This document shows, in pieces, positions 15,449 through 57,653 of a stretch of 64,000 nucleotides of DNA (its first letter is position 1; each line of letters opens with the position of its first letter). The stretch spans positions 1 to 64,000 of the forward strand of contig PWWL01000353.1 of assembly GCA_003561515.1 (NCBI GenBank), written 5' to 3'. The position numbers and the translations under genes are program-made. This DNA is from Balneolaceae bacterium. Its GTDB lineage: Bacteria > Bacteroidota > Rhodothermia > Balneolales > Balneolaceae. The notes under the pieces were generated by a model that saw only the letters and a program-made list of their open reading frames with translations, searched no databases and was not told where the DNA came from.

Positions 15449-16648
15449 CTAGGATGTTATAGCAGGCATATGGCGCCATGTTTCATCGTTTTTAATAACT
15501 GGATCTGCGCCACGCATCAAGTGAGCATATCGCAGAGAAAGAGCGGTAAAAATGTATTTAAACTGTACGTTTTGATAAAGAAGCTTTTTTAGCTCATTTA
15601 AATGCTCAATCATTTCTTCAATCCGCGCGTCCCGCATGGTATCGCAAAATTTTCGTATTACTTCGATCTGGTCAATATTATTTACCAGATGTTCATTTCC
15701 CGATTCCCTGAAAATCAGGATATCCCGGAGAATCTGTTCGAGTGTATTGCAAAGTGCAATCTGATTCTCTGTGTTTAGGCTGCTATTCCAGTCTTTAATC
15801 ATTTTCAGCAGAACCGCTACATCCTGTGTGTAAGAATAGCGTAAAAAATCTATCACTTCGCTTCGTGTTTGCTGCATTGTGGGTACGTCATAAAAACGGG
15901 TTATGGCGTAGTTACCGTCCGATAAGCGTGCAAGATATGAGGCGTTTTCTTCAGATAAGCCATCATACTCCATGAGCCCCGACTTGATATCTTCCTCACC
16001 AAGCGGGCTCAATCGGATATGCTGGCAGCGCGAAATAATCGTAGGCAGCAGCTGATCAGTTTTGGAGGCGGTTAGTATGAATAAAACACTATCTGACGGC
16101 TCTTCAAGCAGTTTCAAAAAGGCGTTGGCTGATTCTTTTCGCATGGTGTCGATCCCTGTAATGATGATCACCGTTTTCCGGCCCTCATTGGGTTTGTACA
16201 CCGATTTCGGCCTTATTTCTCCGTGATAATATTCAATGGAGTAGAACGCGCGTCGATTTTTCGATGACTCCGTATCGGTGAGTGCCGGCCTGAGCGTGAA
16301 ATCAACTATTTCGTAAGGATCTTTTGACAGCAGTTCCAGCCTGGCCTGAAGTTCCGAAGCTCCAACCGTTGACGGCATTGGCAGAAAGAGATGAATATCC
16401 GGATGAGTGTACCAGCTAGATTTTTTTGATATCGCTGTGCCCTTTAAATCGGTTAAATGATCAACGCCGTTCACGATTTCGGCCAATGTTAGTGCAAATG
16501 CAGTTTTGCCGCTGCCGTCAGGTCCTGTAATCAAATAAGCATGACTCAGGCGCTCATTTAAAAGCATTTGTTGAGCTTGAGCACGGGCGTTTTTCTGTCC
16601 CACCAAGCGCCGGTCGCCAAAACGGATATGTTCGTTGATAAATTTCAT
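15449..16648 (-). CDS. holB: DNA polymerase III delta prime subunit
   Basis: 399 aa from the preferred ATG at 16648. That start is 7 nt after the ccmB stop and has a GGGAGGA ribosome site about 10 nt upstream; a longer frame opening at 16678 would overlap ccmB. The Walker A loop GPDGSGKT is at 42-49. TVIIITGIDTMRKESANAFLKLLEEP and the SRCQHIRL motif are typical of clamp-loader subunits. The cysteine zinc module of E. coli delta prime is missing. The role is assembly of the sliding-clamp loader. Confidence 0.9.
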   Translation of the reverse strand: MKFINEHIRFGDRRLVGQKNARAQAQQMLLNERLSHAYLITGPDGSGKTAFALTLAEIVNGVDHLTDLKGTAISKKSSWYTHPDIHLFLPMPSTVGASELQARLELLSKDPYEIVDFTLRPALTDTESSKNRRAFYSIEYYHGEIRPKSVYKPNEGRKTVIIITGIDTMRKESANAFLKLLEEPSDSVLFILTASKTDQLLPTIISRCQHIRLSPLGEEDIKSGLMEYDGLSEENASYLARLSDGNYAITRFYDVPTMQQTRSEVIDFLRYSYTQDVAVLLKMIKDWNSSLNTENQIALCNTLEQILRDILIFRESGNEHLVNNIDQIEVIRKFCDTMRDARIEEMIEHLNELKKLLYQNVQFKYIFTALSLRYAHLMRGADPVIKNDETWRHMPAITS

Positions 16649-31076: not shown

Positions 31077-31701
31077 AGCTCGCTAGAGGTTAATCGTGTA
31101 TCTGCCAATTAGCAAATAGCCATTACACGATTATTGGAATCCACAACAAGAGTGGTTGCCGGAAAACTCATCATCGATTCCGTAAATTTCGAAGCAGCAT
31201 TCTGGAAATTGCGGACAACTCTCCGGATTATGCTTCCGTTGTTTTTCGAAGATCGCGCCCGGAGATGGCAGGGTCGGGCACCGCTTGTGCTATCGACCAG
31301 ACGTTCCCTTCCATACCGTAGCTTCCATGGAAATAAGTCGATTCATGTGATTGCTCGTATTCTAATCATAGGTAATCGTCTGAGGCTGAAGACATGACAC
31401 AACACAGCCAGGGAGTAACGTCCCGGGTAAACGGTCTGAGTTGTCAAGCCCCGAATCTTGATCCTTATCAACGCCCAATATCAAGCCGAGGGGTTGATGG
31501 GAAAACCCATCTAAGGTGTGCAGTTCCCTTTTAGTTTCGCTTCGACATTAAAAGGTGCAAAGTAATATCAAAAACATTATCGATACCGGTCCTTTTTTAA
31601 TTCAGGATGTTGATGTTCAAGTAAAAAAAAGCCCCGATAGGTTAATATCGGGGCTTTCAATATATAAATTAAATCTACCACGCAACGGTAGAATCAGGCC
31701 A
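31077..31701. repeat. Intergenic region with dispersed mosaic repeat, copy A
   Basis: No gene. A 10-bp inverted repeat at 31091-31100/31124-31133 follows ccmF and may end its transcript. At about 31197-31310 a block (GAAATTGCGGACAACTCTCC..., CTATCGACCAGACGTTCC) matches 46810-46930. At 31444-31503 a second block begins with CCCCGA and ends CAAGCCGAGGGGTTGATGG; it matches 46716-46778 and 47194-47257. Module order differs from the other copies. Confidence 0.65.
31628..31657 (-). terminator. Rho-independent terminator of citrate synthase
   Basis: The stem AGCCCCGATA/TATCGGGGCT has a short loop and, read on the minus strand, is followed by eight T residues (complement of 31623-31630). It lies 45 nt after the gltA stop. 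This is the clearest intrinsic terminator in the window. Confidence 0.9.
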
Positions 31702-46407: not shown

Positions 46408-47334
46408 ATTACATGCATGATAGTATATTTACCCAGGAAATTCAGGCCGATGTAATGATTTATGATGGTGTTAACGTTTAATCTTATCGTTAATAGTTAA
46501 TTGCGTTTTTCACAATACTGATAACGAGCCGGTGTAAGGTGCTTGACTAAGCAACTGACCAATTGCTCCGTCCGGAACGTATTCGCCATGAGAATCAGAA
46601 CGGTTTATGCATTTAGTTGTATTTAAAAATTCATTGGCAAAAAACCGACGCTGAAGGCGTCAGATAACATCCCGAGAATTCGGGAGGGCAACGCCCCGGG
46701 TTAACGGATCAAGAATTTCAAACCCCGAGATGAGATGCAGATCATCGATGCGATTGCAACCGAGGGGTTGACGGGAAAGTCCGGCAACGGAAATGGGTAC
46801 CACGGATCCCATTCCGGAGATTGCGGACAAACCTCCGGATTATGATTTCATGGTTTTCCGCAGATCGCGGCTGGAGGTGGAGGCTTCGCGGTCCAAATCC
46901 CGGTGCTACCGACCAGTCGTTCCGTCCGGACCGCATTCGATACAATGGTTACAGTTTAGCTAATTTATCAAATTGTCTTTTGTAAATGGCTTACCCAGTT
47001 ATCCAACAAATCGCACAGCTCCGGAGGAGCCACCGGGTTGTAGAAATTGAATTGAATACGAACCCATAAATCCTGAGTCCGTATATCGAACTATGACCGG
47101 AACTATATGGATTTCAACAAAATATTTCATCAGAGTTATTGAACACGTTTCAGAGAAACGTCTGGTCGGTAGCATTAAAATGGATTCAATCCCCGAAACC
47201 CCGAGCCCATATTTTGATCAACGCCATGATTCAAGCCGAGGGGTTGACGGGAAAGCCCGGCAACGGGTATGGGGTACGTGGCTCCCATTCCGGAGATTTG
47301 GGACTGTTTGGTCCTGAATTAGCAGCTATACCAA
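46408..47334. repeat. Gene-free region with mosaic repeat copies B and C
   Basis: About 930 bp without a credible gene. Copy B (about 46640-46940) carries the hairpins GACGCTGAAGGCGTC and CCCGAGAATTCGGG, then the ACCCCGAG...CGAGGGGTTGACGGGAAA block (46716-46778), the ATTCCGGAGATTGCGGAC block (from about 46811) and GCTACCGACCAGTCGTTCC (from about 46905). Copy C (about 47155-47310) has the last block reversed (AACGTCTGGTCGGTAGCA), then ACCCCGAG...GAGGGGTTGACGGGAAA (47194-47257) and a partial CCATTCCGGAGATT. A further fragment (GACCAATTGCTCCGTCCGGA) lies near 46557. Confidence 0.7.
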
Positions 47335-52995: not shown

Positions 52996-53296
52996 GGAAT
53001 CCGCATCTCCGGTCAGGTTACAGACGGAATAATATTTATCGTGAGTTTCCAGACGGATTCCGATCGCATGGACTTATTTTGTGAGGATGACTATCTGTAT
53101 CGACATTAACAGATCTGTAAAGTCCTGAAGGGACATCCAGCAATAGCATAGGACGGAGTCCTATGTTTTAGAGATCTACCCCCTCAAAAATAAGCCCTGA
53201 AAGGGCGTCAGCCTTGTTGCAAATAATCTCTTAGGCTAGCGCCCACTCAGGGCTTTTCTGATTTGAGGCACTTTTATTCATAGGATCCCGTCGCCG
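52996..53296. other. Intergenic hairpins downstream of leuS
   Basis: No gene. A tight hairpin, CATAGGAC/GTCCTATG with a GGA loop, is at 53147-53165. An imperfect 22-bp inverted repeat, AGCCCTGAAAGGGCGTCAGCCT (53193-53214) style arm and its partner 53233-53254, ends in GGCTTTTCTG and could terminate leuS transcription. The CCTGAAGGGAC wording resembles dispersed Bacteroidota repeats. Confidence 0.55.
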
Positions 53297-53525
53297 CTCT
53301 GGTTTACAATCGCCGGCCTGACCCTGGCTTACATTCCCATGGCCTACCTGGCAGGCAAGCTTGCGCTTCGCGGAGTTGATCAGCAATGATTGAGATTTTA
53401 TACTGCCCAGTGCTTACACTTATTCGGAGAGAAGAGGAGTGCCGGTTTACAATCAATCAGGGAAACAGCACAACATTACAATAAACTTTGGGTTCTTGCC
53501 ATTTTGGTTGGTTTGGAATATTGTG
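53297..53525 (+). repeat. Direct repeat copy 1, carries a membrane-protein gene tail
   Basis: A 229-bp segment repeated, roughly 85% identical by eye, at 55628-55855. Its first 90 bp read in one frame as WFTIAGLTLAYIPMAYLAGK..., ending RGVDQQ and a stop, the C terminus of a membrane protein whose upstream part is missing. The rest (from CTTACACTTATTCGGAG to GGTTTGGAATATTGTG) is of unknown nature. The pair brackets the S41 protease gene. Confidence 0.75.
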
Positions 53526-53647
53526 TGAGGAGTGGAATTGAAGAGGTGCAGTCGTGCAATTATGTGTCATTTGGTATGCCAGCCTCTGAAATTGGCCGGT
53601 GATTTATGTTGATACCATTCTATTAAATCTGATTAAGTCACGGAGTA

Positions 53648-55558
53648 ATGAGAGCAGCAATAAAATATCTGTTGTTATTCATTTTGATGCTGTTGCCTTT
53701 CGGTGTGCAGTCTCAAGTAACTGATGAAATCTACCATGAACGTCTTTTTTACACGGCCAAATTATGGGGTCACGTCAAATATTTTCACTCAGCCATGGCG
53801 GGGTACATGGTAGATTGGGACGATGTGCTGCTGAATTCGCTGGATGACATACGCAACGCACCGGATAATGAATCATTTAATCAAGCCCTATTGGATATGA
53901 TTCATGAAGCCGGGCCTATGGAAACGGGCTCAACTCTCTTGCCGGATTTTCCGGATAGCCTGAACAACAACAACGATACATCTTGGTTTTACGCCTCTAA
54001 ACTTTCTGAAGATGTAAGCGCGGCTCTTGATACAATCAGGGTGCGTTTCAGACCACAAAACAATCGATATGTAAGCGAGCAGTGGAACAATGGCCCGCCT
54101 GCATTTTTAGTTGACTCGAAATATGAAAGTGTTGAAGGCCTGCCTGATGAAAACATGAGAATACTTGCACTGTTCAGGTATTGGAACATCATTCACTATT
54201 TCTTTCCCTACAAGTACATCATGGACCAGGATTGGGATGAAACCCTTGCTGAATTTATTCCAAAAATTGTGGAAGCTGAGGATGCTTTAACCTACCACCT
54301 GACCTTTAAAAAGCTGACCACAAGAATCAACGATTCGCACGCTTTTTTCAGCAGTCCGGTGTTTAATGCATGGCAGGGCTTTGCTTTCCCGCCATTTCTT
54401 GCAAGGTATATCGAAAATCAGATGGTCGTCACCCAGGTTTTACCCGAAGTGGATATTGCCCCGGGTGATGTGATTAAAAGAATTGATAACGAGGAGATTG
54501 ATGAGTTAAGAGGCCGTCTCAGAAAGTATGCGCATGGTTCAAACGATGAAATCATTGAAAGAACGATTAACGATTTTATTTTATGGGGTCAGGGCGGGGA
54601 ATTTTCCATAACGGTTTCTGACGGCAGTACCGAACGGACATTGAACCTAAACAGAAACTCGAGCAATTTTAACCTTTTAAATTTCGATGATAGCCCTGTT
54701 TGGTCCGAAACGTTTTCCGATGATGGGTGCCACTTTGGGATAGTTGATATGGGCAGGCTCGAAGTCAATCAGGTAGCATCCATGTTTAATGATTTATGGA
54801 ATACGGATGCGATCGTTTTTGATATAAGACACTATCCAAGGGGAACTCTGTGGACTATTGTAAACTATTTGTATCGATCCTCAATTAATAATGCAAATTT
54901 TACCCAACCTGATTCAAACTTTCCCGGCAGGTTAGTTTGGGTCTATTCTAATATCGGTGAAGGAACTTCCTCGCCTTATTCCGGAAAAGTGATCATTTTG
55001 TTTGATGAACGAACGCAAAGCCATGCTGAATACACCGTGATGGGGCTGGAACGCTATCATAGTTCCATAAAAATAGGAAGTACAACCGCCGCCGCTGACG
55101 GCAACATTGCACAAATTTCGCTGCCCGGCCAAATCCGCACTGCTGCAACATTTCTTGGTGTTTACTATCCTGATTATACACCAACGCAGAGAATTGGGAT
55201 TATACCCGATATTGAAGTGCGGCCAACCATCCAGGGAATCCGGAATTTGCAGGATGAGGTTATGAATCATGCTTTACAGTGTGATGTACTCATGCATACC
55301 AGTGATCCTGATGAGCGTGGCAGTATCTCGGTGTACCCGAATCCCGTTCATGGTGAAATAAACTATGAATTGTCCACAGAGTTTCCGGGGGCGTTTTCAA
55401 TTGATATCTATGACATTCTTGGGCGAAAGGTTTTAAGCGTTAATCAATCGACTTCTTCAGGCACCATTGACGTGTCGGGCCTGGCAAACGGAGTTTATTT
55501 TATCCAGGCCAGTTTTTTTGATATTACGCAGACAGGAAAATTTGTTAAGGTCGATTAA
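53648..55558 (+). CDS. S41-family C-terminal processing peptidase with T9SS sorting domain
   Basis: 636 aa with a signal peptide (about 1-23, ending VQS). A degenerate PDZ-like part (PGDVIKRIDNEEIDELRGRL, about 278-297) precedes the S41 core: IVDMGRLE, AIVFDIRHYPRG, and VIILFDERTQSHAEYTVM with the probable nucleophile S458. The end is a T9SS type A sorting domain: VYPNPVHGEINY, GRKVLSV, LANGVYFIQ, GKFVKVD. It is probably secreted or surface-bound and degrades peptides. It lies between two ~230-bp direct repeats, and its AT-rich character contrasts with leuS. Confidence 0.87.
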   Translation: MRAAIKYLLLFILMLLPFGVQSQVTDEIYHERLFYTAKLWGHVKYFHSAMAGYMVDWDDVLLNSLDDIRNAPDNESFNQALLDMIHEAGPMETGSTLLPDFPDSLNNNNDTSWFYASKLSEDVSAALDTIRVRFRPQNNRYVSEQWNNGPPAFLVDSKYESVEGLPDENMRILALFRYWNIIHYFFPYKYIMDQDWDETLAEFIPKIVEAEDALTYHLTFKKLTTRINDSHAFFSSPVFNAWQGFAFPPFLARYIENQMVVTQVLPEVDIAPGDVIKRIDNEEIDELRGRLRKYAHGSNDEIIERTINDFILWGQGGEFSITVSDGSTERTLNLNRNSSNFNLLNFDDSPVWSETFSDDGCHFGIVDMGRLEVNQVASMFNDLWNTDAIVFDIRHYPRGTLWTIVNYLYRSSINNANFTQPDSNFPGRLVWVYSNIGEGTSSPYSGKVIILFDERTQSHAEYTVMGLERYHSSIKIGSTTAAADGNIAQISLPGQIRTAATFLGVYYPDYTPTQRIGIIPDIEVRPTIQGIRNLQDEVMNHALQCDVLMHTSDPDERGSISVYPNPVHGEINYELSTEFPGAFSIDIYDILGRKVLSVNQSTSSGTIDVSGLANGVYFIQASFFDITQTGKFVKVD

Positions 55559-55627
55559 GTGTGATTGACACTAAAATTCGCTCGCAAATGCTATACTTGT
55601 TATCGGTTCCGGGAAGGAGACGAACCA

Positions 55628-55855
55628 CTCTGGTTTACCGTCGCCGGCCTGACCCTGGCTTAAATTCCCATGGCCTTCCTGGCAGGCAGGGTTGCACTTC
55701 GCGGAGTTGATCAGCATTGATTGAGTTTTGATTGTACCCGGTGCTTACACTTATTCGGAGGGGAGGCGAGTGGCTGGTTTACAAACAACCGGGAAACCAA
55801 ACAAAATTATAATAAACTTTGGGTTCTTGCCATTTTAGTGGTTTGGAATATTGTG
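55628..55855 (+). repeat. Direct repeat copy 2
   Basis: The second copy of the 53297-53525 segment. Here the membrane-protein tail is broken by a stop (GGCTTACATT in copy 1 is GGCTTAAATT here), and a 1-bp deletion lies near the end (ATTTTAGTGG against ATTTTGGTTGG). It is more decayed than copy 1. The remaining 170 bp up to the antitoxin gene hold nothing I recognise. Confidence 0.75.
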
Positions 55856-56028
55856 CGGCAGATAAGGGTGATGGAGGTTTTGACGATCAATTATATGACA
55901 CAGGGTGAATCAAGTTGCAATGAGCAATCCTTATTTTAGTGAAGTCATTAAATTGGAATAAAATCGAATTGCCATGAAAGCTAACTACTTAAAAATAATT
56001 GATCATTCTGAAATAAAGACTGCTTCTT

Positions 56029-56319
56029 ATGGAAGTGCATAATATGATAATTACCTTGAAAGATCTGATTTCCGAGTTCCGTAAAAAGTCGGCTGATTTT
56101 ATAAAGTGTCTCAAAAAAGATAAACAACCGATCATTCTTACCCTGCACGGTAAAAGTGCGGCAGTTTTGGTGGATGTGTCCGTATATCAGCAAATGGTTA
56201 ACAAACTTGAACTGATGGAAGAGCTGCTTGAGGCGAAACAACAAATAGAAAGGGGTGCATTCGTTTCCCATGATGAAGCCAAAAAGCGGATTGAAGAACA
56301 CCTGGGCAAGTGGAAATAG
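56029..56319 (+). CDS. Phd/YefM-family antitoxin
   Basis: 96 aa; ATG 56044 (MIITLKDLIS) is an alternative start nearer the family norm. It has the Phd/YefM layout: an N-terminal DNA-binding half with KKDKQPIILTLHGKSAAVLVDVSVYQQMV, then a charged C-terminal toxin-binding helix ending HLGKWK. Its partner toxin should overlap or follow directly, but only a stub is seen (56310-56354). It may be a solitary leftover or a regulator. Confidence 0.82.
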   Translation: MEVHNMIITLKDLISEFRKKSADFIKCLKKDKQPIILTLHGKSAAVLVDVSVYQQMVNKLELMEELLEAKQQIERGAFVSHDEAKKRIEEHLGKWK

Positions 56320-56354
56320 ACCGGGCCAATCAGGCTTTGAACAACCAGGCATGA
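56310..56354 (+). pseudogene. Remnant of a RelE/ParE-type toxin start
   Basis: A GTG at 56310, overlapping the antitoxin stop, opens the frame VEIDRANQALNNQA and then stops at 56354. The position and the wording (E-I-D-x-A-x-x-A-L) resemble the start of ParE/RelE toxins. The remaining ~80 codons are missing. The match is short, so the identification is tentative. Confidence 0.35.
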
Positions 56355-56530
56355 CATGAATTGAGCTTTTAAAAATCCGGATTTGTTAATTGGTTCATCC
56401 CGAGTAAATTCATTTCAGTCAGAATTCCGGCATGGAGGTTTAGGCGGTGAGCGTTTTGTGAGCTCCGTTCAAGACGGAAGTACATTTCACAAATCAAACT
56501 CTCAATTTTTTTCACTAAAAAAACCAAGCA

Positions 56531-56893
56531 ATGAAACCAATAAATACCGGCCGGCTGAACGAAGAAGACTGGATAAATCCCCCTTCACCGGACCCAATTT
56601 TGCTAGCTCAACTCTGAGCTGACCAGTTCCGGCACATTACAACCCTGGGCGTTGCAGGAGCTGGTGGTGTACTAATCCTTTTACAAGCCGAAATCATGTA
56701 CTTGCAGGATAACTGGCTGGCAGCTCTTGGTTGCTTCACGATTGCAGCTGTATTCGGCATGTATGGGCAGATTGCTGTGGTTGACGATGCATCTAGCGGC
56801 GAACCGCCGGGAAAAAAGGCCCGAACTCTGCGTGTAATGGCGCTCGCATAGTTGGGTGCGGCTGGAGGCGCCGCAATCGTATTCCTTTTTTAG
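56531..56893 (+). pseudogene. Small membrane protein gene broken by two in-frame stops
   Basis: One frame runs 120 codons from ATG 56531 to TAG 56891-56893, interrupted by TGA at 56615-56617 (codon 29) and TAG at 56849-56851 (codon 107). The translation is coherent: MKPINTGRLNEEDW near the start, FRHITTLGVAGAGGVLILLQ and LAALGCFTIAAVFGMYGQ as spans, and GAAGGAAIVFLF at the end. The first stop needs a single C-to-T change from CGA. I do not recognise the family. The gene is recently dead or the stops are sequencing errors. Confidence 0.7.
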
Positions 56894-57047
56894 CTCCAGT
56901 ACTTTCGCTGTACTTTCTTTAAAGCTGTCACTTCAGGCTCTTAAAATATAGAGGCTCATTAGCTATGGCTTTTCCGTTACATCACCAAATTCAAGGATCC
57001 TTTCTCGCCAGTCACAAACGATTCCGGGGACTTAGCTTAGGCCGGCA
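56894..57047. other. Short gene-free spacer
   Basis: Separates the membrane-protein pseudogene from the convergent glutathione peroxidase gene. The rest of the surrounding non-coding DNA (56355-56530) is also empty of recognisable features. No terminator with a clear T tract was found. Confidence 0.4.
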
Positions 57048-57653
57048 TCAATGTATCCCGCCCCTAATCTCATCACACAGCGGAGAAATCGACGGGCCGA
57101 AATAGTGGGTGAGTGTTCCCTGTTCATCAATCAGGTATTTCCCAAAGTTCCAGTCGGGGGTATGGTTGTTCCAGCCATTGAGGCTGCTGTCGGTAAGCCA
57201 TTCAAAAACGGGCTGCTGATCCTGCTTTTTTATCACTCGGCCTTTTGCCGCAACCGGAAAGGTAACTCCGTAGTTAATTCTGCAGAATTGGGCAATTTCG
57301 TCATCGCTGCCTTTTTCCTGGCCGGCAAAATCATTGGCAGGAAATGCGATGATCCGGAGCTTGTCCTTCAATCGCTCATGCAGAGACTGGAGTTCATCAT
57401 ACTGCCCTGTGTATCCGCAGTCTAATGCGGTATTCACCAGCATCACTTTCTTCCCCTTCAGCTCTGAAAAATCGAGACGCGTACCGTTGTTGAGCGTTAC
57501 CGAAAGGTCGTAAAACGAGGCGTTGGGAGATGTATCCTCTGTATTCTTTAGCACTGTTCCGTTCTTTCCCTGCTTGCCCATCTTCATCGCAATGGGGTAC
57601 ATCTTACGAAGCATTTTTTGTTTAAAGCTCTCTTTCATAGTTGAGGATGTCAT
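57048..57653 (-). CDS. Glutathione peroxidase-family protein
   Basis: 201 aa. The peroxidatic cysteine is C79 in VNTALDCGYTGQYDEL; the glutamine of the tetrad is Q112 in FAGQEKG, and the tryptophan is in PDWNFGKYLI. The usual FPCNQF is FPANDF here, so the cysteine of that motif is missing, and the Asn of the WNF block is kept. A 45-residue N-terminal extension without a signal peptide precedes the fold. It reduces peroxides with thioredoxin or glutathione. It stands alone. Confidence 0.88.
   Translation of the reverse strand: MTSSTMKESFKQKMLRKMYPIAMKMGKQGKNGTVLKNTEDTSPNASFYDLSVTLNNGTRLDFSELKGKKVMLVNTALDCGYTGQYDELQSLHERLKDKLRIIAFPANDFAGQEKGSDDEIAQFCRINYGVTFPVAAKGRVIKKQDQQPVFEWLTDSSLNGWNNHTPDWNFGKYLIDEQGTLTHYFGPSISPLCDEIRGGIH

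Follow-up and report, generated by a model that had tools for sequence, protein, structure and literature searches.

Decayed attI-type sites flanking a predicted secreted protease gene in a Balneolaceae bacterium, probable members of a dispersed family of integron receiver sites

Background

Integrons are usually pictured as a single attI site located beside a single integrase gene. Clusters of attC sites that lack an integrase are termed CALINs. In a class 1 integron study, a gene positioned between two attI sites was efficiently excised when both the sites and the integrase were intact (PMC12901181). Genomic integration sites for cassettes, as outlined in the sources that discuss them, have been named attG (Loot et al. 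2024, cited in PMC11023631; PMC12901181). A literature search for Balneolaceae integrons and for orphan attI sites retrieved no useful paper.

The window analyzed here is a stretch of 64,000 nucleotides from a Balneolaceae bacterium, in which a protease gene lies between two direct repeats. These repeats quite probably consist of the 3'-terminal part of a lost gene (gene X) followed by a decayed attI-type integron receiver site, the latter belonging to a family that is scattered and mostly situated away from integrase genes.

Results and discussion

Direct repeats and gene X remnants

The features of the locus are arranged in the order X remnant-site A, protease, X remnant-site B and phd. The direct repeats bracketing a secreted protease gene, as described in an earlier note on this DNA, were recovered by each method used. 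An ungapped search places them at 53294-53513 and 55625-55844, while BLAST aligns 53294-53525 with 55625-55855 (86.7% identity, E-value: 2e-72). A gapped alignment of 53291-53525 with 55622-55855 has 202 identities in 234 positions, and its longest uninterrupted match is 26 nt. When the more divergent stretch belonging to the element family is included, the repeat units reach approximately 53571 and 55902; the right halves of sites A and B differ strongly. Another dispersed repeat of approximately 110 bp (75-76% identity; 46720-46828, 47196-47304 and 31198-31307) is unrelated to those flanking the protease gene.

The earlier note was also correct that both repeats open with the C-terminal codons of one membrane-protein gene and that the donor gene is missing. 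The remnant in copy A (53256..53389, plus strand) encodes the C-terminus of X, a membrane protein of approximately 140 aa. Its homology to X is clear from 53285, with 53285-53389 translating as IPSPLWFTIAGLTLAYIPMAYLAGKLALRGVDQQ-stop, and its upstream part is degenerate and contains a stop. The remnant in copy B (55622..55720, plus strand) translates as PLWFTVAGLTLA*IPMAFLAGRVALRGVDQH-stop and contains an in-frame TAA. Copy A probably extends further upstream than copy B, to approximately 53256 (FLI*GTFIHRIPSP), so that B would fall within the extent of A, and the breakpoints of the two copies may differ. The remnants show up to 65% identity over approximately 30 aa to the C-termini of the membrane proteins of sister genera. 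Intact X, which has no Pfam family, is present in sister genera and in other families of the order, while in the window genome no intact copy was found, only a divergent paralogue on contig C344. The idea that the donor gene lies beside the element elsewhere was rejected, as the element is absent from all 16 intact X loci.

Upstream, the copy A remnant abuts a palindromic repeat (53192..53255; inverted repeat, 83% complementary). In the interval between leuS and the X remnant, this hairpin comes after a near-threshold match to the Acido-Lenti-1 RNA on the minus strand (53121-53165; 36.2 bits, gathering threshold 37). That match is the sole near-threshold one and lies outside the repeat, over which no known RNA family was found. 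The region downstream of leuS is not conserved in the genus, and synteny there was of no use for locating an empty site.

A dispersed family of attI-type elements

The non-coding half of the repeat belongs to a dispersed family. An initial model, built from both window copies together with one from contig C257 of the same genome, found relatives throughout the genus. A second model, built from 22 copies, has approximately 63 matches in 19 of 28 genus genomes; searched across the order, it has matches in 25 of 129 genomes from five genera, many of the genomes compared being draft MAGs. The DNA pattern of the 3' half has no match in viral contigs. Alignment of the 22 copies shows that the TTG and ATA of a pair of promoter-like hexamers are among the invariant columns. 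Of the 32 ORFs that begin no more than 400 bp downstream of a site, 29 share its orientation. Toxin-antitoxin and defence genes are recurrent behind family copies, including ParE, PemK and PIN-type toxins and DRT type 3 reverse transcriptase (identified by Pfam or PADLOC). The DRT type 3 reverse transcriptase Drt3a (E-value: 7.6e-111; L049 135-1469, G012:C1) is encoded directly behind an orphan attI-type site. At another locus (L178, G021:C111), attI-type elements themselves recur between toxin-antitoxin pairs, all in one direction, as if replacing most attC sites.

To avoid circularity, the profile was rebuilt with all sequence of the window genome excluded. Homology to the family was found for both window sites: site A (53467..53571, plus strand; E-value: 1.9e-14), which is degenerate and also matches the 22-copy model, and site B (55798..55902, plus strand; E-value: 2.8e-8), which is more degenerate. 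Markov-resampled window sequence scores at best an E-value of 2.7 against the same profile. When the seed is reduced to three integrase-adjacent sites, A is still recovered (E-value: 2.2e-5), while B is non-significant (E-value: 1.1). The profile also recovers further copies on contigs C257 (E-value: 1.7e-17) and C169 (E-value: 5.5e-9) of the window genome. The former (1894-2003, L021) lies behind a YfcC-like transporter gene and the latter (15491-15606, L096) behind an alanine:sodium-symporter-like gene, in both cases with hypothetical genes after the site.

Both window sites retain a promoter-like sequence on the plus strand, TTGCCA-17-TATTGT in site A (53496..53524) and TTGCCA-16-TATTGT in site B (55827..55854). 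The core triplet is altered in both: judged from the alignment of 22 copies, GTT is replaced by GTC in site A (53566..53568) and by GAC in site B (55897..55899). Because the GTT core is gone from A and B, they are classed as relics and not as functional attI sites.

Integrase neighbourhood

An integron integrase scoring above the curated cut-off is encoded by 15 of the 28 genus genomes. At three loci (G009:C87, G004:C119 and G021:C35), and with a weak match at a fourth (G020:C25), the element separates the first cassette from a divergent integrase gene, on whose upstream side it lies. It also adjoins truncated integrase genes at G006:C80 and G006:C37. Thus, four copies are located beside a full intI and two beside fragments, amounting to only six of approximately 63, and most copies are far from any integrase gene. 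Other integrase-adjacent regions are too divergent for the model, and these often have a similar ..ATGTTA motif at their end. A further candidate neighbour at G019:C27 was dropped, its recombinase gene being cargo that lies downstream of the site in the same orientation. Two near-complete genomes, G005 and G012, carry eight and four copies, respectively, and have no integrase above the cut-off. The window genome (84.5% complete) likewise has no integrase above the cut-off.

The ends of the repeat pair in some copies, and identity as an attC site was considered. It was rejected because the copies have no consensus fold, some lie beside intI and true attC sites in the genus are hairpin-like and quite unlike the element.

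Cassette boundaries

Comparison of orthologous sites indicates where cargo is joined. At a site behind the same GNAT gene in three species (G009, G024 and G019), 84-89% identity is conserved upstream and through the element, divergence begins directly after ATATGTTA and the cargo differs. Similarity stops at the same boundary in three further pairs (G012/G005, G024/G019 and G005/G005). Two cassettes common to different sites give the same boundary, G|TTA. One, starting with TTAACG, occurs beside an integrase fragment in G006 and behind sdhB in G019 (86.5% identity over 697 bp). The cassette next to it in G019, TTAAGTGGCTCAATGAA, begins after an attC site, and in G021:C111 it begins directly on the site core. 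Joining at the GTT core is thus seen in four orthologous-site comparisons and two common cassettes. Duplicated segments comprising flank and site also occur, with 98.5% identity in G006 and 95% over 1.5 kb in G005; the cargo differs in both cases.

On the downstream side of 42 distinct copies, a scan gave eight attC-like hits in the orientation of the site and none in the opposite one; the upstream side gave one plus one. Cassettes bearing attC are therefore present downstream, though at only eight of the 42 distinct sites. In the window, no attC was detected within 53000-57100 by a scan that recovers three of three sites in a control locus, and none was found anywhere by a search for end motifs.

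Protease and antitoxin genes

The gene at 53648..55558 (plus strand) occupies the cassette position of site A on the same strand. Its 636-aa product is a predicted type-IX-secreted S41-family protease, with an S41 domain (PF03572; 35.9 bits, cut-off 24) and a T9SS C-terminal sorting domain (PF18962, 51 bits, cut-off 27; TIGR04183). No attC lies behind it, unlike in a canonical gene cassette. Its closest homologue, in G014, is at a different location without the element. Beginning three bases ahead of the start codon and ending at the stop, the DNA of the two genes is 81% identical, and outside these limits the two loci have nothing in common; the G014 copy (L020 6162-8107) is split by a frameshift. 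More distant protease homologues likewise lack the element. Given that a close homologue exists in a relative without the repeats, arrival of the protease gene as a cassette is possible but rather doubtful. The earlier note had proposed insertion by duplication or recombination, and had named two observations that would speak against its reading: that the repeats are common independent elements, and that relatives have the gene without them. The first holds for the non-coding part and the second for G014. What stands of the insertion proposal is that the repeats belong to a family of sites at which cassettes are received precisely; the tie between the protease and the repeats does not.

Behind site B is a gene for a Phd/YefM antitoxin (56029..56319, plus strand; PF02604), with no recognizable toxin gene adjoining it. 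The same gene is found behind sites at G019:C6 and G006:C37, the window protein sharing 67% aa identity with the G006 homologue. Because of this recurrence, site B resembles a loaded site that has since decayed, although the start of the match does not coincide with the core. In the related phd cassette of G019, a second small gene precedes the attC site. The predicted promoter of site A probably still serves the protease gene, and that of site B the orphan antitoxin gene.

Proposed model and alternatives

The proposed model is as follows. In this order, attI-type sites carrying a predicted rightward-firing promoter would be scattered over the chromosome, most of them immediately following an ordinary gene's 3' end, at a distance from any integrase gene. 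Cassettes would join at the core ...ATATG|TTA and presumably be read from the site promoter, which is likely to be active. The joining was presumably performed by an integron integrase, acting in trans in the case of orphan sites. The window would hold two tandem decayed copies that have become relics with the loss of both GTT cores. The X-site tandem may derive from two variants of a single site that recombined, a history in better agreement than a fresh duplication with sites that are 13% diverged and lead into different cargo.

A rival reading gives integrons no role and sees in the repeat a plain segmental duplication, comprising the end of a gene and the promoter downstream of it. This would account for the X coding sequence inside the repeat, and duplicated segments are common. 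The lack of attC in the window and of an integrase above the cut-off in the window genome is in keeping with it. It is nevertheless disfavoured by the family evidence and appears unlikely: relatives of the non-coding half occur in 19 of 28 genomes, in some cases adjacent to integrase genes, with cargo that switches at one precise base, and site A matches the integrase-adjacent sites on their own (E-value: 2.2e-5). Slightly less credible still is the idea of a MITE-like promoter element, mobile or conserved, that lies beside integrase genes by chance and is no recombination site. The dispersal of the family, its conserved promoter-like pair and the detection of attC-like sites downstream of only eight of 42 distinct copies are compatible with such an element. 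A MITE, however, would be expected to move itself and leave target duplications, while orthologous copies stay put as the DNA downstream switches exactly after ATATGTTA, and the cassette starts equal attC-bounded starts elsewhere.

The protease gene could also be an unusual attI-flanked cassette (attI-gene-attI), captured by an integrase and still excisable. Its architecture is that of attI1-aadB-attI1, which is fully excised by IntI1 if the sites are intact (PMC12901181), and the gene is in the cassette position on the same strand as site A. Set against this are the GTC and GAC cores, the 13% divergence of the sites and the strong difference between their right halves, as well as the lack of an integrase above the cut-off and the presence of the gene elsewhere without the sites. 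This reading is about as improbable as the MITE-like one. The class 1 precedent for excision presupposes intact sites and an intact integrase, and probably does not carry over to the window. The suggestion in the earlier note that the repeats could still excise the cassette is likewise not borne out. Site-specific excision today is unlikely because the core triplet is mutated in both sites, no integrase exceeds the cut-off and at most 26 bases in a row are identical. The only route left for deletion between A and B would be rare homologous recombination.

Extending the preferred reading, that of decayed attI-type receiver sites, it seems somewhat favoured that Balneolales possess 'multi-port' integrons, in which several promoter-bearing orphan attI sites swap toxin-antitoxin and defence cassettes in trans at an exact base, the window being a decayed port. 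Each port would be fixed behind an ordinary gene, and the integrase would be encoded elsewhere or be present only transiently. Were a chromosome to carry many attI sites, each with a promoter and open to loading in trans, more than one cassette at a time could occupy the first, expressed position, and cassette capture would not be bound to a single locus. G005 and G012 are nearly complete and rich in sites, with no integrase detected in either, and would allow the origin, persistence and decay of the sites to be tested.

Comparison with known systems

The relic in the window is itself minor; the surprise is the dispersed orphan attI-type sites. As far as the searched literature shows, such sites with exact cassette exchange are new, and searches for attI that are confined to the surroundings of intI would overlook them. 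The family resembles CALINs in having cassettes without a neighbouring integrase. CALINs, however, are defined by their attC clusters, whereas here an attI-type site is retained and attC is often not found. The attI site and Pc promoter of class 1 and sedentary chromosomal integrons share with the family a receiver beside intI (in the family, for a few copies), G|TT insertion, a promoter directed into the first cassette and downstream cassettes ending in attC. Here, in contrast, most copies have no nearby intI, there are several per genome and the window pair is coreless. As attG sites are described in the sources cited above, they too place cassettes outside an integron. They are characterized there as strongly diverged from classical att sites (PMC12901181), whereas the orphan sites are recognizable attI homologues with a predicted promoter. 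The closest parallel to the window in arrangement is with unusual attI-flanked cassettes of the delta-attI type, in which a gene is likewise enclosed by two directly oriented attI sites (PMC12901181). Those cassettes are recent, belong to class 1 and 2 integrons and have been shown to recombine, while the sites described here are diverged relics accompanied by a gene remnant.
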